A DNA stretch of 64,000 nucleotides from Verrucomicrobiota bacterium (GTDB taxonomy: Bacteria > Verrucomicrobiota > Verrucomicrobiia > Chthoniobacterales > UBA10450), in NCBI GenBank assembly GCA_003219175.1, contig QHPU01000042.1, positions 1 through 64,000 of the forward strand. Reading direction: 5' to 3'. A program made the position numbers and the translations under genes. The notes beneath the pieces were generated by a model. That model worked only from the letters and a program-made list of their open reading frames with translations. It searched no databases and had not been told where the DNA came from. Position 1 is the stretch's first letter. Each line of letters begins with the position of its first letter. Below are positions 21,801-25,027 of this stretch, one piece after another.

Positions 21801-22229
21801 TCAATCGCCCGGCGGTGGCGGTGGCGGCGGCGGCGGGCCGGGCGGCATGAACCCATGCCTGTGCAGTAGCCGACTATGGCGTTTTTCCATTTCTTCCAAT
21901 TTGACGCGCTGTTCCGGGGTGAGGAGCGGCTGCATCTCGCGATGCGTTTGATTAAAGATCTCGTGGACGCTTCGCATCGTTTGTTCGCGTGCCATCGTCA
22001 GTTGAGAAGCGGCGCGATCGATTATGGGTGAGATTTTCAGCATTTGGTCGGGCGTGAGTTTCAGTTCCGCTCGCATCCGTTCTTTCATATGTTGCGCCAT
22101 GGAACCTGGAGCCATGCGCGCGAAAAAGGCCTGGTGCATGTGAATGGCGCCGAAAAACCCGCAGGCAGCACCGGCGAGAAAGATCAGCACAAAGGCGACA
22201 ATCAGTTTCCAGCGCAAAGATTTGTTCAT
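21801..22229 (-). CDS. Membrane-anchored Spy/CpxP/CnrX-like periplasmic sensor
   Basis: A 142-residue protein with an N-terminal signal-anchor (LIVAFVLIFLAGAACGFFGA, about 9-28). Next comes a His/Met-rich helix (HMHQAFFARMAPGSMAQHMK), then two LTxxQ-type motifs (LKLTPDQM and LLTPEQR) typical of Spy/CpxP/CnrX helical hairpins. It ends in a poly-proline tail (PPGPPPPPPPPPGD). It is third in an ATGA-coupled operon after an ECF sigma factor and a probable anti-sigma protein, the gene set of the CnrYXH cobalt/nickel sensor. A role as periplasmic metal or envelope-stress sensor is inferred. Confidence 0.82.
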   Translation of the reverse strand: MNKSLRWKLIVAFVLIFLAGAACGFFGAIHMHQAFFARMAPGSMAQHMKERMRAELKLTPDQMLKISPIIDRAASQLTMAREQTMRSVHEIFNQTHREMQPLLTPEQRVKLEEMEKRHSRLLHRHGFMPPGPPPPPPPPPGD

Positions 22230-22516
22230 TCGCCGAGGTCGTTTTGGATAGCCGTGTCCGCCATTGCGTACTCTGTTGGAAGGTCGTTGTTGGAAATCGA
22301 CGTGCGGTAAAGGCCCGCTGTCGCCAGCGCTATAATTGCCAGCGCGATCATGGCAGCACGTTGCGCGAACCGCGCAATGATTGCCGATCCGTTCGGAGAC
22401 GATTCACGGGCCAATGCGAGAACCCGGGTGTCGAAACCAAACGGCATTTCGGAGGTTGGAGTCGGACCGGCAGCGGCACGAAACAAGCGATCCAGGATAC
22501 GGTCGGATCTTTTCAC
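22226..22516 (-). CDS. Probable small anti-sigma factor (CnrY-like)
   Basis: A 96-residue protein with a short cytoplasmic N-terminus (about 1-45), one transmembrane helix (AAMIALAIIALATAGLY, about 53-69) and a short periplasmic tail. It starts in an ATGA overlap with the sigma gene and ends in an ATGA overlap with the Spy-like gene. Size, topology and position match CnrY-type anti-sigma proteins. No zinc-binding HxxxCxxC anti-sigma motif is present. The function is inferred from context. Confidence 0.7.
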   Translation of the reverse strand: MKRSDRILDRLFRAAAGPTPTSEMPFGFDTRVLALARESSPNGSAIIARFAQRAAMIALAIIALATAGLYRTSISNNDLPTEYAMADTAIQNDLGE

Positions 22517-23082
22517 AACAATCCTCCGATCTGTTTGCGCAGTTTTTGGCGCGCGCGAAAAGCTCGTATTTTAACGGTGGCCGCGCTCCAGCCGGTTAGC
22601 TTTTGCACTTCCGCGACACTGCGTGCTTGCAGATAGAGCATATCGATCACGAGCCGTTCCACTGGTTTCAACATCCCGAGTAATTTGTCCACCAAATCCC
22701 GTGCGGCCAGTGAGCGATCCGGCGCCAGCGTTTCGTCCGACGCAGCCAGATTTTCCAGCATGGCAGTTTGTTCTTCGCTCAGATCGGCATGGCGTAATTC
22801 CGGACGTGCTTTTTCTGATGCCAGCTGATTGCGGCAGGTGTTTACCGCGATGCGCGAAACCCAATGCGAGATCGGCGCCTTGCCTGAGTATTGGCCAAGA
22901 TTTTGAAAAACCTTTACGAAAATCATTTGTGATAAGTCCTCTTCGGCAACGCGGCGCGCTCTATAGCCACGCACAATTTTCGCCACCACCGGATATAACT
23001 GGCGGATGAGCTCGCGGGCAGCGTCGTCGTCACCTTGGCGTGCGCGATCGACCAGTGTGCGAACGTGCTCATCGTCGTCCAT
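22513..23082 (-). CDS. ECF-family RNA polymerase sigma factor
   Basis: A 189-residue sigma-70 group 4 protein. Region 2 (about 28-90) includes VAEEDLSQMIFVKVFQNL and the promoter-melting ISHWVSRIAVNTCRNQL. Region 4 (about 135-185) includes ERLVIDMLYLQARSVAEV and the helix-turn-helix WSAATVKIRAFRARQKLR. It is the first gene of a three-gene operon with a small membrane protein and a Spy-like sensor. A promoter candidate of matching type lies 33 bases upstream and another in front of the divergent Spy-like gene, suggesting autoregulation and at least one target. Confidence 0.9.
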   Translation of the reverse strand: MDDDEHVRTLVDRARQGDDDAARELIRQLYPVVAKIVRGYRARRVAEEDLSQMIFVKVFQNLGQYSGKAPISHWVSRIAVNTCRNQLASEKARPELRHADLSEEQTAMLENLAASDETLAPDRSLAARDLVDKLLGMLKPVERLVIDMLYLQARSVAEVQKLTGWSAATVKIRAFRARQKLRKQIGGLL

Positions 23083-23113
23083 GCGTAGAGAAAGGTATCC
23101 ACACCAGAGGAAA

Positions 23114-23141
23114 AGACCGGATGCAAGCCCTTCCGGTTACA
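23114..23141 (-). promoter_or_regulatory. Candidate ECF-type promoter of the sigma operon
   Basis: On the minus strand TGTAACC (23141-23135), 17 bases, then GTCT (from 23117). The GTC lies about 33 bases before the sigma-factor ATG. The same layout, TGTACCC-N17-GTC, faces the other way at 23168-23194. Spacing and the GTC -10 element fit ECF promoters in general. Confidence 0.5.
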
Positions 23142-23167
23142 ATTTTTCCTGAGGATAACGAGTTTTT

Positions 23168-23194
23168 TGTACCCAAAGCAGGAACCTGCCGGTC
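23168..23194 (+). promoter_or_regulatory. Candidate ECF-type promoter of the Spy-like gene
   Basis: TGTACCC (23168-23174), 17 bases, GTC (23192-23194), 42 bases before the ATG at 23237. It shares the spacing and the flanking CCG-GTC with the divergent candidate at 23114-23141. Confidence 0.5.
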
Positions 23195-23236
23195 ATCCAT
23201 TAGCGAAGGCGGAATCACACGCCGCAAATACAAAAT

Positions 23237-23602
23237 ATGAAACAAACATTGACAATAATTGCAGCAATCGCGCTGGGAGCATTTAGCTTCCTGCAGGCGC
23301 AACCTCCGGGCGGGCCGCACGGCGGCTGGCATTCGAATCCTCTGGAGGAGATGACCTCGACGCTCAACCTGACAGACGCGCAAAAGGCAAAAGTACAGCC
23401 AATCTTGGATCAGGCGAAACCACAGCTTAAGGCGATCCATGAAGAGGCAATGACTAAGGCCAAGGCGGTAATGGACGCATCGCTGACGCAAATCCGGCCA
23501 CTGCTGACGCAGGAACAGCAGACCAAACTGGATGGCATCGTAAAGGCGCATGAAGACATGCACAATGCGATGAAAGAGTTGCACGACGCCAAGGCAAAAT
23601 AA
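23237..23602 (+). CDS. Secreted Spy/CpxP-like (LTxxQ) protein
   Basis: A 121-residue protein with a signal peptide (MKQTLTIIAAIALGAFSFLQAQ). The mature part starts with a Gly/His/Pro-rich stretch (PPGGPHGGWHSNP), which could bind metal, then a helical hairpin with two LTxxQ-type repeats (LNLTDAQK near 51, LLTQEQQ near 94). Spy-type proteins are periplasmic chaperones or stress buffers. It is transcribed away from the sigma operon and carries a matching promoter candidate, so it is the probable target of that sigma factor. A clear terminator follows. Confidence 0.85.
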   Translation: MKQTLTIIAAIALGAFSFLQAQPPGGPHGGWHSNPLEEMTSTLNLTDAQKAKVQPILDQAKPQLKAIHEEAMTKAKAVMDASLTQIRPLLTQEQQTKLDGIVKAHEDMHNAMKELHDAKAK

Positions 23603-23734: not shown

Positions 23735-25027
23735 TCACTCGAAACGCAAGGCCTTCACCGGGTCCAAACGCGCGGCGAAATAGGCCGGGATGAGAGCGGC
23801 GATGGAACAGATCAAAAATGCGCTCACACAAATGAGTGTAACGTCACGCGGGATTACTTCCGCCGGAATTGACGAGAATTGGTAGACTTCGCGCGGGAAG
23901 ATTTCGATGTGCAAGGTGTTGGCGAGCCATTGACTAAACTCGTTGCGATAACGAATCAGTGTCATTCCGAGTCCAAGTCCCGTTAAAGTTCCAAAAAATC
24001 CAACCACCATTCCCTGTCCCAAGAAAACCCAGACAATTTGTCCGATATTTGCACCGAGAGCTTTCATGATCCCGATTTCGCGACGTTTCTGCACGGTGAC
24101 AGTGATGAGAGTGCTCATGATTCCGAAGGCGGCGACGACAACGATGAAGAAGAGCAGAAAGAACATTACGTTTCGCTCCAGGCGGATTGCCTCGAAGATC
24201 TGACGATTCATATCGATCCAGGTCCGCGCGACTTGCGACACATCGAGGAATTTTTCAATTTCCGCTTTGACCTGGTCGACATCGTACGGATCCTGCGTTT
24301 TCACCGTGATCCCGTGAAGCGCATCGCCCAATCCGTAAAGCTCCTGCCCGATGAAAAGGGGAACTAAAAGGTACTGGGAGTCGTGTACGTAATGTCCAGT
24401 CTCGAAAATTCCGGTTACTGTCAGATCTTTGGGTAAAACGACTTCACGCAATTCTGCGATCGCCTTCTTTTCTTCCTCGGCCGTTGCGTGCTCGAGTTTT
24501 TTGATCCGATCAAGAACGATTGAGAGATTGCCCGGCGAGTAGACGGTTACCGTGTCTCCAACATTCACGTTCAACTGCCGCGCCAATTCGATCCCGAGCA
24601 CGGTGGTATCGCCGCTGAGATCGAGTTTTCCCGCTTTCACAAATTTTTGCAGCGTGACGACCTTCTCTTCCTGTTCTGGATCAATGCCGCGAATAAGCGG
24701 GGCCAGGCGTTGCTCGTTGTGCTCGACAATGACCGGCCCCTGGACGTAAGGCGCGGTTGCGACAACGTGAGGCGTCGCGCGGAGTTTTTCTGTCAAATCA
24801 CGCCAATTCGTCAGTACCTCTTCGCCCGTAACCAAAATGTGAGCGTCAAAATCGATCACCTTTTGTCGCAATTCGCGGTCGAATCCCGTCATTACCGAAA
24901 TCACGAGAATCAGGACAGTGACACCGAGCATGACGCCCAGCACGGAAATCAGGGTGATAATGGAAAGAAACGTGCGCTTCGGCTTCAGGTAACGAAGCGC
25001 GAGAAAAAGGCTGAACGGTAGTTTCAA
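23735..25027 (-). CDS. Lipoprotein-releasing ABC transporter permease (LolC/LolE family)
   Basis: Inner-membrane subunit of the LolCDE-type machine that extracts lipoproteins for the outer membrane. It has 430 residues. The N-terminal SLFLALRYLKPKRTFLSIIT is the Lol/FtsX signature; one helix (about 22-48) is followed by a large periplasmic MacB-PCD-like domain (about 50-270) and three C-terminal helices (about 280-425), ending in FAARLDPVKALRFE as in LolC/E. No LolD ATPase gene is adjacent, and the protein might serve as a LolF-like subunit. DUF2237 lies 28 bp upstream on the same strand. Confidence 0.9.
   Translation of the reverse strand: MKLPFSLFLALRYLKPKRTFLSIITLISVLGVMLGVTVLILVISVMTGFDRELRQKVIDFDAHILVTGEEVLTNWRDLTEKLRATPHVVATAPYVQGPVIVEHNEQRLAPLIRGIDPEQEEKVVTLQKFVKAGKLDLSGDTTVLGIELARQLNVNVGDTVTVYSPGNLSIVLDRIKKLEHATAEEEKKAIAELREVVLPKDLTVTGIFETGHYVHDSQYLLVPLFIGQELYGLGDALHGITVKTQDPYDVDQVKAEIEKFLDVSQVARTWIDMNRQIFEAIRLERNVMFFLLFFIVVVAAFGIMSTLITVTVQKRREIGIMKALGANIGQIVWVFLGQGMVVGFFGTLTGLGLGMTLIRYRNEFSQWLANTLHIEIFPREVYQFSSIPAEVIPRDVTLICVSAFLICSIAALIPAYFAARLDPVKALRFE

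Follow-up and report, generated by a model that had tools for sequence, protein, structure and literature searches.

A putative autoregulated ECF sigma factor module with a tethered and a secreted Spy-like protein in Verrucomicrobiota

Introduction

The closest described relative of the locus considered here is CirY/CirZ-Spy of Phocaeicola vulgatus, in which a sigma/anti-sigma pair of the ECF class, itself induced in colitis, controls a spy gene cotranscribed with it (PMC13114119); the likeness is drawn from the published description. Its sigma, anti-sigma and Spy-like genes follow one another in that order in a single operon, the sigma factor drives both itself and spy, and the regulon is small. 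Spy-family periplasmic proteins also accompany two-component systems. In E. coli, cpxP and zraP are transcribed divergently from their own envelope-stress regulators, CpxRA and ZraSR, and CpxP is an induced feedback component that misfolded protein is believed to titrate away from CpxA (PMC6737893). A further point of comparison is CnrYXH of Cupriavidus metallidurans, in which an ECF sigma factor, a small one-helix anti-sigma factor and an anchored helical periplasmic sensor are encoded together with overlaps, in the order Y-X-H on pMOL28 beside a nickel pump, and which drives the RND pump CnrCBA.

To our knowledge, little stress signalling has been described in the Chthoniobacterales, a soil group. 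Here we consider a four-gene locus found in a window of 64,000 nucleotides, by which we mean the whole stretch of DNA that was analysed, from a 3.2-Mb draft genome that lies closest, among named records, to MAGs of soil Verrucomicrobia. Included in the family sampled for comparison are Candidatus Udaeobacter and other Chthoniobacterales.

Results

All four reading frames proposed by the initial annotation were recovered at the positions it had given (Table 1). The sigma and anti-sigma genes overlap by four nucleotides, GTGA, which include the GTG start of the latter, and the anti-sigma and sensor genes overlap by four nucleotides, ATGA; the ATGA coupling claimed earlier thus holds at the second junction and gives way to GTGA at the first. 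The secreted Spy-like gene starts 154 nt from the operon on the plus strand. Overlaps and gene lengths are kept across the family, and because the four genes are conserved together with their 4-nt overlaps, we do not regard the set as a chance arrangement. The proposed sigma / anti-sigma / Spy-like sensor module is supported by this family-wide conservation. The genes around the module, on the other hand, vary from genus to genus, for which reason we consider the module self-contained; LpxK, LigD primase, a cupin and a MacB/FtsX-type permease were rejected as partners on the same ground. The permease gene (LolC/E-like, 23735-25027, minus strand) lies tail to tail with spy and is apparently common to close relatives only.

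Table 1. Positions of the four genes and of the two promoter elements in the window
Feature	Position	Strand	Size	Remarks
ECF sigma factor gene, first gene of the operon	22513..23082	-	189 aa	Pfam Sigma70_r2 and Sigma70_r4_2
Putative anti-sigma factor gene	22226..22516	-	96 aa	GTG start; role assigned from position and topology
Membrane-anchored Spy-like protein gene, putative sensor	21801..22229	-	142 aa	ORF; homology to the secreted protein
Secreted Spy-like protein gene, putative output	23237..23602	+	121 aa	Pfam Metal_resist and LTXXQ
ECF-type promoter facing the sigma operon	23113..23141	-		TGTAACC-N16-GGTC; TGTAACCGGAAGGGCTTGCATCCGGTC (23141-23115); 31 nt before the sigma ATG
Mirror-image promoter facing spy	23168..23196	+		TGTACCC-N16-GGTCAT; TGTACCCAAAGCAGGAACCTGCCGGTCAT; 40 nt before the spy ATG

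Co-occurrence of the genes in relatives, which the initial annotation had named as its test, was confirmed. A sigma orthologue was present in 51/60 other sampled genomes of the family, some loci being cut by contig ends; the genomes are MAGs of uncultured bacteria, many of them on short contigs. In most genomes a search with the sensor returned a second, weaker match on the opposite strand of that contig, roughly 1-2.5 kb off, which is the divergent spy. Among loci from named records, a retrieval that largely overlaps the lineages of the first 60-genome sample, a Spy-like third gene followed the anti-sigma position in all 49 with enough sequence, and the divergent spy was detected in 56/60. 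In at least one of the four loci scored as lacking it (L201, on a contig shared with L062) a spy-like start does lie downstream of the promoter and had been missed by the ORF filter.

Beyond the family, the profile of the anchored protein found homologues in 62/289 genomes across the phylum, and in each of the 26 distant loci examined a sigma gene preceded the sensor homologue in the same orientation. The gap between the two is about 300 nt in most of these loci, which leaves room for an anti-sigma gene, and many of the small proteins encoded in the gap keep a P-x-GF-A-T-R-V-like motif. Divergent secreted spy genes with the TGTAACC/GGTCA element occur chiefly in the family of the window: only one of the 26 distant loci has a divergent secreted copy, and loci from two other families (L079, L293) combine a divergent spy with one or more good promoter matches. 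In some genera, loci (L075, L076, L077, L078 and L098) carry paralogous sigma/anti-sigma/sensor modules with other divergent genes and different promoter details; in L075 and L078 the divergent reading frame resembles a HAD-type hydrolase. Loci of distant families (L297, L298, L309) have a Spy-like ORF that precedes the sigma gene and is codirectional with it, which points to a gene order of spy, sigma, anti-sigma and sensor.

The sigma factor contains sigma-70 regions 2 and 4, both above the Pfam cut-off, without region 3, as expected of an ECF sigma factor. Its nearest solved relatives are ECF sigmas of the SigH/RpoE type (E about 2e-13), and the weaker match to CnrH (E 3.4e-6) marks the latter as a general ECF relative only. 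The small protein encoded next has a single hydrophobic stretch, around residues 46-64 by hydropathy, and its predicted topology is an N-terminal cytoplasmic segment with the motif PFGFDTRV, one transmembrane helix and a periplasmic tail, which is short and conserved (consensus NEYAIADSAIQ in an alignment of 19 homologues). A Pfam search of this protein gave no family above the cut-off, and it is by its position and topology that we infer a one-helix anti-sigma factor.

The third gene encodes a protein with a hydrophobic stretch at residues 9-27, two LTxxQ motifs 45 residues apart and a Pro-rich tail. In the window its LTXXQ score, 18.9 bits, is below the Pfam cut-off of 24.3; among the 32 aligned anchored members of the family, LTXXQ is found at E<=0.1 in 29 and Metal_resist in 26. 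The N-terminal membrane helix carries the pattern W-(x9)-F-x-A-G-x-x-x-G, whose residues are invariant in the sensor family and are kept in most of the distant relatives, whose sensors mostly read W...F-x-A/S-G-x-x-x-G. Such conservation suggests a helix that makes contacts within the membrane rather than a plain anchor, and the protein encoded here is presumably the sensor of the module.

The divergent gene encodes a protein with a signal peptide (a hydrophobic N-terminus), a His/Gly-rich N-terminal part and two LTxxQ motifs, one at residue 45 and one at residue 90. It exceeds the Pfam cut-off for Metal_resist, with 33.9 bits, and for LTXXQ, with 27.6 bits, and a profile of its relatives matches E. 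coli Spy (E 3.9e-7), so that by Pfam family, paired motifs and signal peptide alike it belongs to the Spy/CpxP family. Described earlier as a His/Gly/Pro-rich secreted protein, it fits the description in its N-terminus, and the wording also suits the Pro-rich tail of the anchored protein. The genome of the window has a third Spy-like gene, at G000:C15:2893-3195 (33 bits), which shows no match to the promoter pattern of the module.

Aligned with hhalign, the anchored and secreted families are homologous to each other along 79 columns without a gap (probability 99.3, E 1.1e-20), and the anchored-family profile itself matches E. coli Spy weakly (E 0.021). Both share a compact form. The LTxxQ motifs are 45 residues apart in 40/42 scored sensors and in most outputs; the spacing is 73 residues in both Spy and CpxP of E. 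coli, and the equivalent positions of CnrX are about 76 apart. AlphaFold models of both proteins consist of a short helix, one 43-residue helix running from motif to motif and a last helix, that is, a continuous helix is predicted instead of the four-helix cradle of Spy and CpxP with its ~73-residue spacing; the sensor model has a pLDDT of 83 and a pTM of 0.49. Foldseek searches with the two monomer models gave no significant match, Spy and CnrX included, long-helix monomers of an expected dimer being a poor query; a CnrX fold thus gains no support from them. We regard this compact Spy form as a putative chaperone.

The link between the divergent gene and the sigma factor lies in the intergenic region. 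In 38/38 loci sampled from the family, TGTAACC-N16-GGTCA occurs there twice, in mirror orientation, once towards each gene, scored as at least 10 of 12 bases in both directions, a level reached by 0.5% of shuffled regions per locus, and twin elements are counted in 59/60 and 57/60 of the named records (the count at L235 is inflated by masked N); the 38 and the 60 loci are related genomes and not independent, and the shuffle addresses chance, not shared descent. Across the 38 loci the sigma-side element usually lies 31 nt from the sigma ATG, and outside the twin elements the intergenic region has diverged. In the window the spy-side copy departs from the family consensus TGTAACC at one base of the -35 element.

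Over 83 family genomes TGTAAC-N17-GGTCAT is strongly enriched relative to the reversed pattern used as control, and most matches are at the module. In the genome of the window, two of the four one-mismatch matches are the module promoters and one of the other two falls inside the gene for ribosomal protein L5. A large regulon in this genome was rejected, the strict pattern giving the module promoters and those two others, neither of which is convincing; a looser pattern (spacer 15-17) gave 8 matches against 4 in the control, barely above it, and the extra matches were left unused. Copies of the element also precede additional spy genes in relatives, namely a tandem second spy in G054 (L101) and an unlinked one in G059 (L176).

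In six loci (L180, L184, L185, L186, L267 and L269) TGTAACC-N16-GGTCA stands before a gene for a small His/Gly-rich lipoprotein (for example MAISNRLKSMKAWLGLLGLGCALFSSSCANDQD...QRHRHHGGGGGRYGHG). This combination occurs in several genera and was not found in the genome of the window, and the lipoprotein is, judging by its promoter element, likely a second regulon member in relatives. Another recurrent match, TGTAACGTCCTGTTTTGGAATCAGGTCAT, was set aside, there being no Spy-like gene behind it in L188, the sole locus examined (G037:C123); it is a conserved sequence, identical in several genus g4 genomes, L188 among them.

Because of the mirrored promoters, we regard the divergent spy as a probable sigma target and not a mere neighbour, which upholds the proposal that a second Spy-like protein is the output of the module. 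From the promoter sequences, the sigma factor very probably drives both its own operon and spy. The twin elements and the few other sites fit a predicted autoregulated ECF sigma factor with a tiny regulon.

Discussion

We propose, as a reasonably probable reading of these data, that the module is a self-regulating ECF sigma circuit responding to protein-folding stress in the envelope (the periplasm), with a tethered Spy-like protein as its gauge and a free one as its output. The 96-aa anti-sigma factor would use its cytoplasmic segment to keep the sigma factor bound to the inner membrane, and its periplasmic tail and transmembrane helix would contact the tethered Spy-like protein; the short conserved tail and the membrane-helix motif of the sensor would fit an inner-membrane complex of this kind. 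Unfolded or aggregating clients would then occupy the tethered Spy-like domain, the complex would loosen, and the freed sigma factor would transcribe its own operon and the secreted spy from the mirror-image promoters. The free copy made in this way would bind the clients, perhaps emptying the tethered copy and turning the circuit off. Such a scenario presumes that the 96-aa protein binds the sigma factor, that the sensor is the product of the third gene and that unfolded protein is the signal. We consider client occupancy the simplest signal because the sensor is a tethered relative of the very chaperone being made, and an occupancy gauge would have a precedent, by analogy, in the titration of CpxP off CpxA. 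The more specific version, in which a tethered duplicate of the chaperone directly holds the anti-sigma/sigma complex and its client occupancy sets the output of the free copy, is one that we put forward tentatively and, on balance, slightly doubt.

Several aspects of the locus count against such a gauge. The spy promoter of the window carries its -35 substitution, and the putative anti-sigma factor is without a recognised anti-sigma domain. Metal stress would also be compatible with the His-rich N-terminal part of the secreted protein and with the His/Gly-rich lipoprotein, and the product of the third gene may itself be an output. The last of these would make both Spy-like proteins outputs, with the anti-sigma factor or its proteolysis doing the sensing and the third gene providing a co-expressed inner-membrane chaperone. 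The homology of the tethered and free proteins would be natural under such an arrangement, and the operon order matches that of CirYZ-Spy, where Spy is treated as a regulon member (PMC13114119) and where the anti-sigma factor may likewise be the sensor. We nevertheless consider it unlikely, considering that the third gene keeps a specific transmembrane motif with invariant residues and stays with the sigma gene at every distant locus, where a divergent secreted copy was seen only once, and that the short periplasmic tail of the anti-sigma factor offers little to sense with.

The initial annotation had left the choice between an envelope-stress and a metal-buffering circuit, and had likened the module to CnrYXH. 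Were it a metal circuit like CnrYXH, binding of a metal ion by the tethered protein would release the anti-sigma factor, and the secreted His-rich Spy-like protein would buffer the metal. The three component types are the same as in CnrYXH, the output scores above the cut-off of the Pfam family named 'Heavy-metal resistance' and is His/Gly-rich at its N-terminus, some relatives have the His-rich lipoprotein behind the same promoter element, and CnrX-like sensors on sphingomonad plasmids adjoin copper-resistance genes. CnrX itself has the metal ligands H42, H46, E63 and H119. M123 is a ligand as well (PMC7689651). Tested as a spacing pattern on the pMOL28 CnrX sequence, these ligands give HxxxH in helix one and HxxxM ahead of the final helix; the combination is found in 0/42 sensors (HxxxH in 4, HxxxM in 0), and the sensor family alignment has no invariant His, Met, Cys or Glu except the start Met. 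At a database size of 177635, the sensor profile does not match CnrX (E 160) and the anti-sigma profile does not match CnrY (E 74). Unlike the pump-linked CnrYXH, the module has no family of metal pumps, metallochaperones or metal oxidases around it in the 29 flanking proteins examined, which come from the window and from five relatives, and the gene order here is H-Y-X rather than Y-X-H. Membership of CnrYXH was rejected on gene order, ligands and sequence, and a metal circuit appears improbable; the module may resemble CnrYXH in outline, yet it is not a member. Of the earlier pair of proposals, envelope stress is the better one.

Irrespective of the details of the mechanism, the module amounts to a concrete predicted regulon in the Chthoniobacterales, Candidatus Udaeobacter and its relatives, consisting of two promoters and four genes. 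If the tethered protein is indeed a gauge of protein folding, the workload of a chaperone would directly control its own supply and be sensed through a tethered copy. Chaperone titration would then exist in a sigma-factor form at the inner membrane, spread through the Verrucomicrobiota and built on a compact Spy. It would also follow that not every 'periplasmic heavy metal sensor' encoded beside a sigma gene should be read as a metal sensor.

Lastly, we need to place the module among the systems described in the 'Introduction.' The divergent position of spy recalls cpxP and zraP; CpxRA and ZraSR, however, are two-component systems without a tethered Spy-like sensor, unlike the sigma circuit proposed here. 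The secreted output shares its two LTxxQ motifs with E. coli Spy and differs from it in their compact spacing. The CirYZ-type gene order is present in the module and autoregulation is predicted from the promoters, but the published account of CirYZ-Spy gives one Spy per module, treated as an output, whereas here a tethered Spy-like protein is accompanied by a divergent secreted one behind a mirrored promoter. Sigma-controlled spy is therefore already known, from CirYZ-Spy in another phylum; new, as far as we found in the literature searched, are the pairing of a tethered with a free Spy-like protein, the promoters in mirror image, the compact form of Spy and its distribution across the Verrucomicrobiota.
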